Origin: an uncultured Pelagibacteraceae bacterium
GTDB lineage: Bacteria > Pseudomonadota > Alphaproteobacteria > Pelagibacterales > AG-422-B15
Direction of reading: 5' to 3'
Length of the DNA: 64,000 nt
NCBI GenBank assembly: GCA_902619105.1
Contig: CACNCV010000003.1
Location: 62,001-126,000, forward strand
The translations under genes were made by a program, and so were the position numbers. Below are positions 30,368 to 38,126 of this stretch, piece after piece (the stretch's first letter is position 1; each line of letters begins with the position of its first letter). The notes under the pieces were generated by a model. The model saw only the letters and a list, made by a program, of their open reading frames with translations, ran no database searches and was not told where the DNA came from.

Positions 30368-30724
30368 CTAAAATTGTAGATAGTATAGTTCTTGCATGAT
30401 GGCTATAAAAACTCTTAGGACTGCTAGAGCTACCATTACTTTTGCAGCATATCCCCAAAAAGCAGAGTTGCCTTCTGATTTTTTGTTTGAAATATAATTA
30501 GTGGAGCTTCTCCAAATTGAAACTAGTATGTGAACCAGTAGTGCTATGAAAACTATGTAAAGTATTAATACTCCTGAAATCATGTCATTTACAATAGCGC
30601 CATCCATTAAGTAAAGAATTGAATAGCCAGCTATATTTCCAAAAATTATGCCATATACCCAATAAGTCATTACCAAGGGCACATCCCCATGCCAAAGATC
30701 TTTAATTAATTTCATTTTTATCAA
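30368..30724 (-). CDS. Hypothetical membrane protein (118 aa)
   Basis: Three predicted TM stretches; overlaps next minus-strand ORF. Confidence 0.55.
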   Translation of the reverse strand: MIKMKLIKDLWHGDVPLVMTYWVYGIIFGNIAGYSILYLMDGAIVNDMISGVLILYIVFIALLVHILVSIWRSSTNYISNKKSEGNSAFWGYAAKVMVALAVLRVFIAIMQELYYLQF

Positions 30725-31205: not shown

Positions 31206-31685
31206 ATGGCAGTAGATCGTAAAATTGATACTTTAGAAGGCGCACTAAGGGATGCCATCGAAAGATTTGGTTCTGAAAAAGTAGCTGAAGCTATTGGCAA
31301 AAGTAAAGATTATGTAAATAATTTAAGTAATCCAAATCAAAAAAATATTGGTGAGCGAAGAAGAAAAAAAATCTCTCATGAAGACTCGATAATTCTTGAT
31401 AAATTTTGCTTAGAGAATGAAATGGCACCTCCAATGATCGCTGTTCATCAAATGCTGATTGATAATTATAGGTCTAATTTAGACCCATCAAGATCGATTG
31501 AGCAAAGCATAAGTACAATTTCATATAGATTTGCTGAGGTTGTAAATAAAGTCGAAACGTCTCTTGATCCTAATAGTGAAAAAGGAATTGATTTTAGTGA
31601 AAATGAAAAAAAACAAATCCATACTTCAATTAAGGAGCTTGAAGAACAATTGAAAGTATTTAAAAACTTAATATCCTTAAAATGA
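31206..31685 (+). CDS. Putative DNA-binding regulator, phage CII-like
   Basis: N-terminal helix-turn-helix-like IERFGSEKVAEAIGKSKDYVNNLSNPNQ, coiled C-terminus; first gene before pLGIC homolog. Confidence 0.5.
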   Translation: MAVDRKIDTLEGALRDAIERFGSEKVAEAIGKSKDYVNNLSNPNQKNIGERRRKKISHEDSIILDKFCLENEMAPPMIAVHQMLIDNYRSNLDPSRSIEQSISTISYRFAEVVNKVETSLDPNSEKGIDFSENEKKQIHTSIKELEEQLKVFKNLISLK

Positions 31686-31688
31686 ATA

Positions 31689-33485
31689 ATGCCTAAAATA
31701 ATATTTAAAATTTCAATAATTTTATTGACTTTTTTTGCTACGATTTTGATCGCAAGGGCTGAGACAGATCAGTTTGAACTTTCAAATGATCCATGTGGTG
31801 ATTTATTTAATTCAATTAGCAATAATATCCAAACTTTACAAAATGCACCTGGGCTAAGCAGACAATATTATGGTTTTAGCATTGAGCCTGCATTTATTGA
31901 TGGTCATGAATTAGATGGTGTTTCAAGTAAAGATGAAGTTGAGAATTTTTTGATTGTCACTGAGGTGCCCAATCAAAATGATAATACATACTATATGATG
32001 GATCAAAATAATGTTTATCAATCTTATATAAAGTCTGAAAGTTCTACAGGATCAGTATACAAAACTGATGGACTTATGGTCGGTGACTTGATCTATGAAA
32101 TTAATGGTTTGAAGGTTAATTCAAATAATTTTTATGATGCCTGGCAAAACCTTTATTTGTATTACGGAAAAAATTATTCTTTTACGGAGTATGTTTTATT
32201 TGATTTTGTTAATGAGGAATTAGGCATAGACCTGAACAATCAAGATACTATCCAGCTTGGAATTTACAGACCTAGTGAGTTTAGTGGAGACCATGTCGTA
32301 AGCTTAGATGAAGACTTAATGTATATCAAAATCACATCTGATAATGATTATCCAATAATTCCTGCTGAGCTTGAATTGGACATAGAAAAGATAATTGAGA
32401 TAAATAGTAAGGGAAATTATTTTGAAGCAAACTATGTTAAAAATTTAATTAATTGGGATAAGTCTGAATTAGCTGATTTGTCCTCAAAAATTTTTGGCAA
32501 TAATAGTTATTTTTGTTACTGGGAAGAAACTGATATTGAGTATGGTACATTGCAAGCGTTATGGAGGCCTGCAGTAAAATGGACAAACAGACTTGGTTTT
32601 GACAAGGATCAAATCAAGAATTCAATTCATGTTCAGTTTTATCCTGAAATATTGGAAAACAATTGTCCCTGCGCAGTTGTATTTTTTAGGGAAGAGGGTA
32701 TTGCAAAATTCCAGACATACTTTGATTATAGATCCTTTCCATTCGATAAACAAAACCTATCCATATCACTTTTTAACTATGGCGATGGTTATACATATGG
32801 TACGGAAACTCTAAATTGGTCTTTTGGTGATGCAAAGCCAAAATTTGTAGGTGCAAAATTTATCAGTCCAGAAAGAGTTAGAAGGGATATATCGGGCTGG
32901 TCAATCAATAGTGAAGACAAGTATGACGTTGAAATTGTAAAAGTTTTCGACTCTTCTGAATTTAGATCGGAGATTGAAAAAGGAATAGTTTTAGCTGATT
33001 CAGTAAATTGGGATACAAGAGATATTTTTACCTTTGAAATGAATTGGCAAAAAGACATTGAGAGACAATGGGTTTACTTTTTTTTTAAAATTATAGCTCC
33101 ACTTGTTCTTATACTTTTAATTTGTTGGTCGGTGTTCTGGACACCTAGCAGGGAACTTGAATCAAGACTCACAGTAACAATTACATGTTTTTTAGCGCTT
33201 GTTGCTTACACTTTTGTTATAGATGATGATTTACCGCAGTTATCTTATCTTACGCTGATGGATTACGTAATTTTAGTTACTTATTTTTTTGCGTCACTTC
33301 CAACTGTATTGAGTATTATTTCTTATAATTTAGCAAAAGAAAATAACAGTTCTAATATAACAGTTGACAGATTTAGTAGATATTCAGGACCTTTTCTGTA
33401 TATAATTTCACTCTATATAATTTTAACATTTAATGTAAATGAAGAAAATACTCTGCCAATTGCGAAATCTTTAGTGCTCTTCTAA
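31689..33485 (+). CDS. Pentameric ligand-gated ion channel homolog with N-terminal signal peptide and PDZ-like domain (paralog 1)
   Basis: Signal peptide; PDZ-like DGLMVGDLIYEINGLKV; pLGIC loop A-like LWRP, Pro-loop FDYRSFPFDKQNLSI; TM module VFWTPSRELESRLTVTITCFLALVAYTFVIDDDLPQLSYLTLMDYVIL. Confidence 0.82.
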   Translation: MPKIIFKISIILLTFFATILIARAETDQFELSNDPCGDLFNSISNNIQTLQNAPGLSRQYYGFSIEPAFIDGHELDGVSSKDEVENFLIVTEVPNQNDNTYYMMDQNNVYQSYIKSESSTGSVYKTDGLMVGDLIYEINGLKVNSNNFYDAWQNLYLYYGKNYSFTEYVLFDFVNEELGIDLNNQDTIQLGIYRPSEFSGDHVVSLDEDLMYIKITSDNDYPIIPAELELDIEKIIEINSKGNYFEANYVKNLINWDKSELADLSSKIFGNNSYFCYWEETDIEYGTLQALWRPAVKWTNRLGFDKDQIKNSIHVQFYPEILENNCPCAVVFFREEGIAKFQTYFDYRSFPFDKQNLSISLFNYGDGYTYGTETLNWSFGDAKPKFVGAKFISPERVRRDISGWSINSEDKYDVEIVKVFDSSEFRSEIEKGIVLADSVNWDTRDIFTFEMNWQKDIERQWVYFFFKIIAPLVLILLICWSVFWTPSRELESRLTVTITCFLALVAYTFVIDDDLPQLSYLTLMDYVILVTYFFASLPTVLSIISYNLAKENNSSNITVDRFSRYSGPFLYIISLYIILTFNVNEENTLPIAKSLVLF

Positions 33486-34207
33486 TGGAAACACAACTTT
33501 TACTTTTTTTATATTTCTTACTTGTGATGGGTCCTCCCGTTATCTTAGCAACTATTTTCGTAAGACTAGATATTTTCAGAGAGCCAATAAGAGCTGTCGT
33601 TCTTACTCTTATTATTTCTTACGCTGCTACGTCAATCTTTGGTGAAATTAAATACGGAATTCTTGATATACCAGATGCCTGGTACGATAACAATTTTATA
33701 AATTCACTTTTCTTAATTGCATTACCTGAGGAATTGACAAAATTCTTTGTACTTTACTTTTACTGCGCGAGAATAAGAGCCTTCAATGAACCAATGGACG
33801 GTCTTGTTTATGGTTCTTTATCAGGACTGGGCTTTGCAATCAATGAAGCTTTTGGTTATGCCTACCTTTATCAAGAAGAGTCCTCAGAGGTTATCGAGGT
33901 TGTAGATAGTATTCTTATGAGAGGATTAATAGCCGTGCCCGGACATGCATTTGATGGCATTTTAATGGGCGCATTTATTGGCGTAATGATCTTTAGAAAA
34001 GTGAACAAAAGCTTATTTATTTTATTGGCGATATTAGTTCCAACAATTTTTCATTTCCTTTGGGACTTCAGTATATACGCGGGTTATGGAGGATTTGTAT
34101 ACTTAATTTACTTCATACAATTAATAATTGTTGTCCTCTTATTTAGGCGTTTTCGTAATTTACAAAAATCAAAAATCCGAGAAGAAGAGCTAAAAATTAA
34201 CAAATAA
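33485..34207 (+). CDS. PrsW-family intramembrane-associated protease
   Basis: ALPEELTKFFVLYFY, MDGLVYGSLSGLGFAINEAFGYA, VPGHAFDGILMGAFIG; ATG overlaps TAA of upstream channel gene. Confidence 0.75.
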   Translation: METQLLLFLYFLLVMGPPVILATIFVRLDIFREPIRAVVLTLIISYAATSIFGEIKYGILDIPDAWYDNNFINSLFLIALPEELTKFFVLYFYCARIRAFNEPMDGLVYGSLSGLGFAINEAFGYAYLYQEESSEVIEVVDSILMRGLIAVPGHAFDGILMGAFIGVMIFRKVNKSLFILLAILVPTIFHFLWDFSIYAGYGGFVYLIYFIQLIIVVLLFRRFRNLQKSKIREEELKINK

Positions 34208-34596: not shown

Positions 34597-34812
34597 GTGA
34601 AAAAAAATAGAAATACAGAGGAATTTAAAAAATTTATCAATTCTTCATCGGTAAAGAATATATCTGGAGAAGAAAAAACAAATAACATTAAAAAGTTTTG
34701 GGGAAAAAAATTAACTACCAAAAGAAAAGGTAAGTCGCGACCAGAAATAGGACTGGAATTTAAAAGAATGCACTTAGCAAAGAAAAAAGTATCGAAAGGC
34801 ACATATGAATAA
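34597..34812 (+). CDS. Small basic hypothetical protein (71 aa)
   Basis: Lys/Arg-rich ORF, overlaps DUF2130 gene start by 8 bp. Confidence 0.45.
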   Translation: MKKNRNTEEFKKFINSSSVKNISGEEKTNNIKKFWGKKLTTKRKGKSRPEIGLEFKRMHLAKKKVSKGTYE

Positions 34813-35989
34813 TAATCAAATTAAATGCCCATATTGCAAAGAAGAATTCTCAATAGGAGAAGCATTAGACAAACATGAAAATGAAATTAGAATTAAAATT
34901 GAAGAAGAAAATAAATCTAAAATTAAATCTCTAAAATCTAAGCTAGAACAAGACGCAAAAGCTAAGGCAGTGAAACTTGTTGATGACAAATTAAAAATGG
35001 AGAGAGATAAAATGATATCACGCGCTCGAAAAGATATAGAAATAGAACAAAAAAGAGAAATAAGCCAAGTAAAAGCTGAATTAGAAATAAAACATCAACA
35101 TAAAATTCAATCATTACAAAAACAAAATGAGAGAAAGGAAGAGCTCAACAAAGAACATTTAGAAAAAGAAAAACAAAAGATAAAAAGTGAGCTTGAGAGT
35201 AAGGTTGCTGCGGAGAAACTTGCAATTGAGGAAAATAATGCGAAGAAAATAAAATCGCTTGAAATAGATAATGCACGTCTCAAGAAAACTGTAATAGAAT
35301 CAGCTCGTAAAGCAAAACAAGGTGCTGTTGAACATCAAGGTGAAGTTCAAGAGGAAGTTCTTGAAGACTTCTTGAGAAGAAATTTTGAATATGATCAATT
35401 CGAACCCATAAAGAAAGGTGCTAAAGGTGCTGACATTTTACAAACAGTTTATAAAAGAGATGAAGATGTCGGAAAAATACTCTGGGAGAGTAAAGACGCT
35501 GTAAATTATAACAAGGCTTGGGAAGAAAAGTTACTCAATGACATGACCGAAACAAATGCCATGTTTGGTATAATTGTAACTGAGGTCATGCCAGCAGAAT
35601 CTAAAGGACTTATACAGTTCAGGGCGAACGGCAAAATAATAATTTGCCCAATGAAATGGGCTAGTATTCACACTGTAACTAGTTTACTTAGACCTATTGT
35701 TGATGCTTTTTCAAGGGAAACAAAAAATCATCAGAGCTTATCACAGCAAAAAGACGCCCTATATCAATTAGTGAGTAGTCCAAGATTTAAACTTATGGTG
35801 CAACAGCTAATGAATGAATTTGAAAGTGAATACCAGCAATTAGAAAGAGATAAAAAATCAAATACCAGAAGTATTCTAGCGAGAGAAAAAAACTTAGAAA
35901 ATAAAAAAAGTTATATAGACAATTTGATTACACAAATTGCAATTGAAGCAGACTTAAAAGAATACCTTACTGAAAACACCAATTATTAA
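34805..35989 (+). CDS. DUF2130 domain-containing coiled-coil protein
   Basis: IKCPYCKEEFSIGEAL, long coiled coil, GEVQEEVLEDFLRRNFEYDQFEPIKKGAKGADILQ, ILWESKDAVNYNKAWEEKLLNDM. Confidence 0.8.
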   Translation: MNNNQIKCPYCKEEFSIGEALDKHENEIRIKIEEENKSKIKSLKSKLEQDAKAKAVKLVDDKLKMERDKMISRARKDIEIEQKREISQVKAELEIKHQHKIQSLQKQNERKEELNKEHLEKEKQKIKSELESKVAAEKLAIEENNAKKIKSLEIDNARLKKTVIESARKAKQGAVEHQGEVQEEVLEDFLRRNFEYDQFEPIKKGAKGADILQTVYKRDEDVGKILWESKDAVNYNKAWEEKLLNDMTETNAMFGIIVTEVMPAESKGLIQFRANGKIIICPMKWASIHTVTSLLRPIVDAFSRETKNHQSLSQQKDALYQLVSSPRFKLMVQQLMNEFESEYQQLERDKKSNTRSILAREKNLENKKSYIDNLITQIAIEADLKEYLTENTNY

Positions 35990-36047: not shown

Positions 36048-38126
36048 GTGAAGTTCCTGCAAATAGTTTTTTGTTTAATAGTTTATATTTTCTCATTTCC
36101 TGCGATTGCAGATAATTTTTGTAATATATTAGCGTTAGAAATCGAAAAAAATTTACCTCAATTTACGAAGACGCCATACTATGATCTGAGTCCTTACTAT
36201 GGTTTTGATGTTATTGAAGGAGACGACTACCTTGAAGTTACTCATATAAATCAAATGCATCCACTGTCCGGCTTATTGACTTCTGATGATGGAGAGAAAC
36301 AAATTGTTATAAGAAATCATTTTGAAATAAATGATCTAGTTAAAGACGATAAAAGCGCTCAAAAAAACAAAGAAATTGAAATTTCAAAAAAACAATATCA
36401 AGAATATAATCATAGTTACCTCAAAATAGGCGATTTGATTTATTCAATTAATGGTAAAGATATTACTGATAAGTTTATTGGTGAAGAATTTTTAGACTAT
36501 TTTGATGAGTTCGTTTCAAAAGAATACAGCGATATTATTAAAAATGAATATAACGGTGATAAAGAATTATTTATTTTTGACAAAGTAGTATTACATAGAA
36601 ACTACAGAAATGATCTAATTGATCAAATAAATGCAAGAATACGTGAAATAAGAGATATTTCTCCAAAAGTATTCGCAGGATATTTTGGTTTACCCTTTAA
36701 CAAGGAAAAATTAAAAAATTATCTGAGGAGAGAAGCCGAAGGAAGAGAAAGAGCTGATTATCGGGACGTTGTCTATAATTATAGATACCCAGTAAATGAC
36801 CATAAATTAACTCTTGGAATTTTTAGGCCAGATGCTTTTGATGGGGATATTGATGAAAATGGCGTTATGCACTTTACCGAAAAAGACCTCTTTTATTTTG
36901 ACGTTTACCCTTCATATAATACCGATAATATCGATGTAAGTGTAGAATACGAATTTTATGATATTCGCAATATAGATGTTCAAAATAATATTTTTACTGC
37001 TGATTATAAATTGAAACTTAGGTGGTACGATACTAATCTTGGAAACCTCGCGGCAGAAATTTTTGCGAGAAACGAAAAAAATTTCAATGAATACGGTGAA
37101 TTTTTAATTGCTCCTGAAAGAGATAACAGGTGTTCGTATGATAATAGTGATGCAAATTATGAAATTATAAGTAAAGTTTGGCGACCAGATTATTATAAAT
37201 TGAATCAATTAAGCACTGAAAAAAATAAATATAAGGAAAATATAACTATTATGCCTTTTTTACAAACAATCCATGACTCAAGAAAAAATATCTTAATGGT
37301 GACTCAAACTGAGAGTGGAACTTCACAATTTACGTTAAATTTTGATTACTCATCCTTCCCATTTGATACTCAAACATTGTCAATAGGAATAGAACAAAAA
37401 ACACAAAGAAGTTTTTCAAGATTGCCATATTCGGTTTCGGATAGATTTAATCCAGCCAAATCTATTGATCTATCAAAGAGCATGGAAGCATTTAATCATA
37501 AACTTTCAGGTTGGGAAATGGCTGAAAAACCTATTAATCAAATTAAATTTGAGATAACTGAGATTAAAGACGATCGTAAAATTAATTTATTAAGCAATTA
37601 TGATGTGCTAAATGATAAAAACTTTGAAAATTCTTATTATCAAATAAAAGATAGATTTAACGATGAGTTTACACAAGTAATAATATTCTCAAAAAAAATA
37701 GATCGAAATTGGAAATATTTTGTTTTTAAAATTATTGCACCGATCATATTAATATTAGTTGTTTGCTGGTCAATATTTTGGACGCCATCAAGAGAATTAG
37801 AATCAAGATTAACAGTTACAATTACATGCTTTTTAGCACTTGTTGCATACACATTTGTCATAGACGATGATCTGCCTAAGTTGTCCTATCTAACTTTAAT
37901 GGATTATATTATTCTTATTTCTTACTTCTATGCGGCTATGCCAACAATCTTGAGTGTTATTTCTCATAAATTATATAATCAAAACAATCTTTCTAACATT
38001 AAGTTAGATTATTACGCAAAATTTTTGGGTCCAATTACTTACGTGCTCTTAATTTATGCTATTATATTTGGAACTGTATCATCTAACAATTCAATACCAT
38101 TCTTAAAAGCAATAACTTTCCAATAA
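36048..38126 (+). CDS. Pentameric ligand-gated ion channel homolog with N-terminal signal peptide and PDZ-like domain (paralog 2)
   Basis: GTG start; signal peptide; YLKIGDLIYSINGKDI; LRWYDTNLGNL, VWRPDYYKLNQ, FDYSSFPFDTQTLSI; TM module IFWTPSRELESRLTVTITCFLALVAYTFVIDDDLPKLSYLTLMDYIIL. Confidence 0.82.
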   Translation: MKFLQIVFCLIVYIFSFPAIADNFCNILALEIEKNLPQFTKTPYYDLSPYYGFDVIEGDDYLEVTHINQMHPLSGLLTSDDGEKQIVIRNHFEINDLVKDDKSAQKNKEIEISKKQYQEYNHSYLKIGDLIYSINGKDITDKFIGEEFLDYFDEFVSKEYSDIIKNEYNGDKELFIFDKVVLHRNYRNDLIDQINARIREIRDISPKVFAGYFGLPFNKEKLKNYLRREAEGRERADYRDVVYNYRYPVNDHKLTLGIFRPDAFDGDIDENGVMHFTEKDLFYFDVYPSYNTDNIDVSVEYEFYDIRNIDVQNNIFTADYKLKLRWYDTNLGNLAAEIFARNEKNFNEYGEFLIAPERDNRCSYDNSDANYEIISKVWRPDYYKLNQLSTEKNKYKENITIMPFLQTIHDSRKNILMVTQTESGTSQFTLNFDYSSFPFDTQTLSIGIEQKTQRSFSRLPYSVSDRFNPAKSIDLSKSMEAFNHKLSGWEMAEKPINQIKFEITEIKDDRKINLLSNYDVLNDKNFENSYYQIKDRFNDEFTQVIIFSKKIDRNWKYFVFKIIAPIILILVVCWSIFWTPSRELESRLTVTITCFLALVAYTFVIDDDLPKLSYLTLMDYIILISYFYAAMPTILSVISHKLYNQNNLSNIKLDYYAKFLGPITYVLLIYAIIFGTVSSNNSIPFLKAITFQ

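Follow-up and report, generated by a model that had tools for sequence, protein, structure and literature searches.

What does a bacterial channel with a PDZ-like periplasmic domain respond to, and is it coupled to the protease gene that overlaps it? The question is raised by P1, an open reading frame of 598 aa (31689-33485, + strand; all features below are on this strand unless stated otherwise) in the window, i.e. the whole stretch of 64,000 nucleotides analysed here, from a genome of 1.24 Mb that is 90% complete. The hosts are ocean bacteria of the SAR11 group with very small genomes, and an accessory operon that persists in such a genome is probably important. The answer that we favour, tentatively and at somewhat less than an even chance, is a PDZ-modulated cation channel which, together with a co-encoded protease, senses periplasmic peptides or damaged proteins. 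The linkage of the genes is observed, and the ligand, the gating and the substrate are inferred.

Two channel subunits in one locus

The P1 reading frame opens with ATG, and the opposite strand in the same register is rich in stop codons. The AlphaFold (AF2) model of P1 had a pLDDT of 72 overall and above 90 across most of the core of the extracellular domain (ECD) and the transmembrane (TM) helices; it consists of a beta-rich domain followed by helices at residues 461-484, 490-511, 523-550 and 555-582. A signal peptide was assigned by eye to residues 1-25 (31689-31763), and the model has a helix at residues 2-32. The ECD (residues 226-459; 32364-33065) was delimited by the model and by fold and profile matches, and it contains a Pro-loop, FDYRSFPFDKQ (residues 345-355; 32721-32753), without the cysteines of a Cys-loop. 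The four-helix membrane domain (residues 460-582; 33066-33434) follows in the model, and its pore helix M2 (residues 490-511; 33156-33221) was located by the GLIC alignment, the model and the family alignment. The earlier note, made from the letters alone, had the signal peptide, the Pro-loop and the four TM helices at these same positions.

Solved pentameric ligand-gated channels (pLGICs) matched the P1 model in the fold search at E 1e-18, with target TM-scores of 0.72-0.81. P1 alone matched GLIC in the PDB at 4.5e-14 (phmmer), with P516 aligned to the M2-M3 proline of GLIC, and it matched Pfam Neur_chan_memb at 4e-6, slightly short of the curated cut-off. A family profile from a 36-member alignment matched ELIC at E 3.2e-70 over the entire extracellular and membrane part, DeCLIC (6v4a) at 1.1e-65 and GLIC at about 1e-46. 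Two Pro-loop residues, P351 and D353, are invariant (40/40 family members), as is the M1 proline, P471 (40/40). P1 meets the pLGIC criteria, namely an ECD sandwich with a four-TM domain, the Pro-loop proline and the M1 proline. The pLGIC fold had been predicted before any search was run, and the fold test on P1 did not refute it (profile E 3e-70, fold E 1e-18). By profile and fold, P1 is a pLGIC subunit and so a relative of nerve-cell receptor channels; its assembly into a pentamer with a gated pore is inferred.

Numbering of M2 by the GLIC alignment places E491 at -2', T495 at 2', T499 at 6' and L502 at 9', and the first by-eye assignment of Glu, the two Thr and Leu was correct. Glu at -2' is present in 37/40 family members, Leu at 9' and Ala at 13' in 40/40 each, and the 6' position is Val or Ile in 38/40 and Thr in two. 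Acidic residues are also found at the outer mouth of the family pore. A cation-selective P1/P2 channel is inferred from these pore residues (-2' Glu and acidic outer mouth) and remains a prediction.

A second PDZ-pLGIC subunit, P2 (692 aa; 36048-38126), lies 2.6 kb downstream of P1 and had been overlooked in the earlier note. It is the sister of P1 in the tree (support 100/99), and the aligned ECD and membrane regions of the two proteins share 37% identity. A stretch of 20 residues in M2 is identical in P1 and P2, with the same codons at only 20 of the 43 matching positions of the M2 core. Recent gene conversion was rejected as the sole cause of this identity because the codons have diverged; we infer that an identical M2 with divergent codons fits constraint. 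Co-assembly of P1 and P2 is possible.

The PDZ-like domain and the ligand site

The family profile and a low-confidence model locate a PDZ-like domain with insertions at residues ~59-216 of P1 (31863-32336). It includes YYGFSI (31866-31883), inferred to occupy the site of the carboxylate-binding GLGF loop of PDZ domains, and GLMVGDLIYEINGLKV (residues 128-143; 32070-32117), identified by Pfam and the family profile as the GD-I--ING core and located here in the earlier note too. At least 90% of family members keep G62, in YYGFSI, which is one of two near-invariant residues of the N-terminal domain (NTD).

The Pfam PDZ match of P1 was weak (E 0.18 with the whole protein, 0.019 with the N-terminal part; 15.8 of 23.2 bits). 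As single-protein Pfam scans left PDZ under the cut-off, family profiles were used, and an NTD profile was built from the N-terminal regions of 40 distinct long-form proteins. The best PDB matches of this profile were PDZ proteins (the RseP homologue of Aquifex at 2.9e-8, DegP at 7.7e-7), and, taken singly, 18 of the 40 members had a match to Pfam PDZ at E <= 1 (best, 1.8e-6). When the window sequences were left out of the profile, P1 still scored 14.0 bits, with its elements in order, compared to 9.5 bits for the best of 2000 shuffled sequences (1000 each of the P1 NTD and the P2 NTD). A chance PDZ-like string was rejected, as P1 outscored all of the shuffles under this profile. The match of P2 to the same profile was negligible (P2 has larger insertions). 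The model of the isolated P1 NTD had a pLDDT of 64; its top Foldseek matches were PDZ domains, but at E 0.019 or worse, with nothing reaching 0.001. An NTD of two jelly rolls, as in DeCLIC, was rejected, since the listed profile and fold matches are PDZ proteins and include no DeCLIC or jelly roll.

At the family level, membership in PDZ is firmly established from sequence. The NTD of P1 is likely a PDZ, on motif and homology and with a low-confidence model of its own, and the putative PDZ of P2 derives from alignment and motif (GDLIYSING) only. The PDZ-like fold proposed in the earlier note was not refuted by its test, with the RseP-type profile match on one side and weak Foldseek E-values on the other, but the domain had been described as N-terminal to the channel and appears not to lie simply in front of it. 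Cys36 in the N-terminal helix (31794-31796) may form a disulphide with Cys276 of the ECD (32514-32516); this bond is inferred from the family alignment. Cysteine occupies each position in 36/40 of the forms with an NTD; the 11 short SAR11 forms, which have no PDZ, all carry it at both positions, and the pair is absent from the short forms of other bacteria. Because the pair is common to long and short SAR11 forms, the PDZ seems to be an insert that follows the N-terminal helix and precedes ECD strand 1.

Binding of C-termini or peptides by the NTD is inferred, and only the conserved loop glycine bears on it. At the ordinary ligand site, we take F19, Y38, F133 and positions 175 and 188 to form the aromatic amine box of ELIC. 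F19, Y38 and F133 are replaced in most family members; P1 has Tyr at the position of F133, and positions 175 and 188 are in uncertain register. The criterion of an aromatic amine box, by which an ELIC-type amine-gated channel was judged, is not fulfilled, and the loss of F19, Y38 and F133 from most members makes an input other than ELIC amines plausible.

PDZ domains often serve as tethers. The PDZ of P1 could be a localisation or assembly module that anchors the channel to some partner in the periplasm, for example a co-encoded protease, while a small molecule or pH gates the channel at an ordinary ECD site. The NTD of DeCLIC is highly mobile and affects gating kinetics, and is not known to drive gating (PMC9897478, PMC12664993), which is in line with a tether, but the mostly lost amine box speaks against gating at the ordinary site, although pH and further small ligands remain possible. 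On balance, we consider a pure tether rather unlikely.

Linkage to proteases and a regulator

Upstream of P1, with a gap of 3 bp, lies a gene for a CII/CP76-like HTH regulator (159 aa; 31206-31685), and the P1 stop codon is overlapped by 1 bp by a gene for a PrsW-family intramembrane protease (240 aa; 33485-34207). This packing (HTH, 3 bp, P1, -1 bp, PrsW) is a tight operon, which the first reading of the sequence had missed. No TM segment is evident in the HTH protein; a family member matched Pfam CII (PF06892) at 1.9e-5, just under the cut-off, and the window copy only at 0.012. The window PrsW matched Pfam PF13367 at 6.6e-32 and has the motifs EELTK and NEAFGY as well as two His motifs; it scored below the equivalog cut-off of NCBIfam PrsW (NF033739; 1.2e-21, 77.4 of 225 bits). 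A DUF2130 protein (34805-35989; Pfam) is encoded between both channel genes; its membership in the module is uncertain, and its family occurs in 3/31 loci (the other two are L041 and L049). A small membrane protein (118 aa; 30368-30724, - strand) belongs to a family found at 10/47 loci, with no Pfam family above cut-off. PADLOC gave only weak ZorA matches in the cluster (HTH protein 2.6e-4, small TM protein 0.0073), and a known anti-phage defence system was not supported, as neither the channels nor PrsW were matched.

A single-protein scan of genome contigs found nothing, and an alignment query was needed, which gave 52 loci from the species-genome collection. The first profile matched 58 of the 398 genomes of the order at E <= 1e-3, weak RseP-type PDZ and short-channel matches included. 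Weak matches were seen in proteins of ~375 aa in genus g6; the one scanned (L105) is an M50 RseP protease matched via its PDZ and not a channel.

Long-form pLGICs had a patchy distribution (27/398 Pelagibacterales genomes), and PrsW was above cut-off in 48/398. PrsW was present in 21/27 genomes with a long-form channel vs. 27/371 of the others (Fisher p 1e-16, not corrected for relatedness). Wherever one genome had PrsW and a pLGIC, long or short, the two were at most 10 kb apart (25/25), and at most 5 kb apart in 21/25. Three gene orders occur among the linked pairs (PrsW upstream and overlapping, downstream on the same strand, or downstream and convergent), and several deep branches of the tree retain the linkage. 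Within 5 kb of the channel, 47 distinct PDZ-pLGIC loci carried the HTH family (36 loci), a trypsin-like protease (23), PrsW (22) and a caspase-family gene (19), and PrsW or the trypsin-like protease was found in 42/47. The HTH gene sits directly beside or divergently to the channel, and GNSGG is kept in all nine trypsin-like proteins checked. Patchy distribution and varied flanks would also be expected if accessory genes were merely pooled in variable regions, with no common function, but this hitch-hiking is very improbable given the 25/25 proximity, the overlapping stop and start codons and the retention of linkage across deep branches and gene orders.

The partnership with PrsW is not obligate, because PrsW was detected in 23 genomes without a detected pLGIC and because two relatives outside the order, from another family, lack it. 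In these two alphaproteobacterial genomes, neither of which holds a PrsW, 1 bp separates the HTH gene from a channel gene downstream, whose product has a PDZ-like NTD (Pfam PDZ_2 at 0.0015 and 0.0017, under cut-off).

Bacillus subtilis PrsW acts on an anti-sigma factor. PrsW might likewise be the site-1 protease of a regulated intramembrane proteolysis in which P1 is the substrate or sensor and the signal passes to transcription. The HTH gene in the same operon and the best PDB match of the NTD profile, the PDZ of a site-2 protease, would suit such a pathway, but no anti-sigma factor gene was identified beside PrsW in the window cluster, the HTH protein lacks an evident TM segment, and PrsW adjoins unrelated two-TM proteins elsewhere. 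We hold this pathway to be unlikely.

Caspase domains were rare (6/95 genomes searched), and in 4/6 of the positive genomes the gene lay ~2.5 kb upstream of the pLGIC. A further possibility is that the channel is an effector, opened when a periplasmic protease (caspase-like, trypsin-like or PrsW) cuts the NTD. It would then serve as a switch for stress or cell death; the analogy is with the gasdermins of bacteria, which proteases release according to the literature. The position of the caspase genes, the frequency of caspase-family and trypsin-like genes (19/47 and 23/47 loci) and the patchy occurrence of the channel (27/398) are compatible with such a switch. However, no caspase or trypsin-like gene was found adjoining the window copies, PADLOC was silent on the channels and PrsW, and a simple motif check did not establish the caspase catalytic residues; the chances of protease-triggered opening appear poor.

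Further arrangements were observed at these loci. Caspase-family proteins are encoded near SAR11 PDZ-pLGICs at L046:263-2926, L056:877-2418 and L070:1347-3248, and the L046 protein also carries Sel1 and SH3 domains. Short SAR11 pLGICs without a PDZ occur near the PDZ forms (L049:4824-6035, L092:6176-7390, L097:5329-6528), with a FAD amine-oxidase gene between the short and the PDZ form; the two forms might build hetero-oligomers, or the genes might serve a linked pathway. Where PrsW has no pLGIC nearby (L119:2824-4628, L124:5785-7459), its gene lies beside those of a pair of proteins without a Pfam match that look to have two TM segments and a helical domain in the periplasm; these may be partners of another type. 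L050 has a PDZ-pLGIC and an overlapping PrsW on a contig labelled as a Gammaproteobacteria MAG; its grouping is SAR11-type and it may be mis-binned.

Proposed mechanism and comparison with known systems

In the favoured reading, a channel modulated by PDZ-bound peptides, P1 and P2 would be subunits of a cation-selective channel of the inner membrane, with the ECD and the inserted PDZ facing the periplasm. The PDZ would capture exposed C-termini or peptides from misfolded or cleaved envelope proteins, and bound peptide would bias channel gating. The co-encoded protease (PrsW here, trypsin-like at other loci) would act in the same pathway. It might generate the peptides that are sensed, or it might process the channel or some partner protein; the operon itself would be under the control of the HTH protein. 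The channel fold, the family-level PDZ and the tight, recurrent linkage with proteases and a regulator are observed; cation selectivity, peptide binding, gating, coupling of protease and channel, and the role of the HTH protein are inferred. Against this reading stand the poor model of the P1 NTD, the non-obligate PrsW and the fact that linkage is no proof of a shared mechanism.

The loci could also represent an undescribed class of envelope signalling, in which a PDZ-pLGIC reads the C-termini made by a co-encoded protease, or docks that protease, and proteolysis is converted to ion flux; the protease would be PrsW, trypsin-like or sometimes caspase-like. We put this forward as a possibility that is still doubtful. 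What bacterial pLGICs do in the cell is largely unknown, and the class, if true, would give them a physiological role. Their function is testable because the PDZ suggests a class of ligand (peptides) and the linkage suggests partners (PrsW, the trypsin-like protease, the CII-like regulator). The PrsW-channel linkage also gives a handle on the role of PrsW outside Bacillus.

Among the papers listed from the open-access literature we found no published PDZ-pLGIC, although an earlier description elsewhere is not excluded, and none linking PrsW with SAR11 or with channels. The 2016 pLGIC inventory discarded the termini and named Pelagibacter only as a pLGIC carrier (PMC4795631), and little is known about the NTDs of bacterial pLGICs according to recent work on DeCLIC (PMC12664993).

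P1 has in common with ELIC, from Erwinia, and GLIC, from Gloeobacter, the ECD beta-sandwich, the Pro-loop, M1-M4, the M1 proline, the -2' Glu and LP..Y.T in the M2-M3 region, but neither of them has an extra NTD. Tasneem et al. (PMC549065) described bacterial pLGICs with a PBP-I, Cache or MCP-N domain in fusion, an account from which PDZ is absent; like P1, these fusions join a periplasmic sensor domain to a bacterial pLGIC. The window PrsW and PrsW of Bacillus subtilis both belong to PF13367, whereas the window copy stays below the NCBIfam equivalog cut-off. The PDZ domains of RseP homologues and DegP are periplasmic, as is that predicted for P1, but they belong to proteases, while in P1 the PDZ is on the channel and a gene of its own encodes the protease. 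DeCLIC, from Desulfofustis, is a pLGIC with a large periplasmic NTD, like P1. The NTD of DeCLIC consists of two jelly-roll lobes with Ca2+ sites (PMC9897478, PMC12664993), whereas that of P1 is PDZ-like and apparently lies between the N-terminal helix and strand 1.
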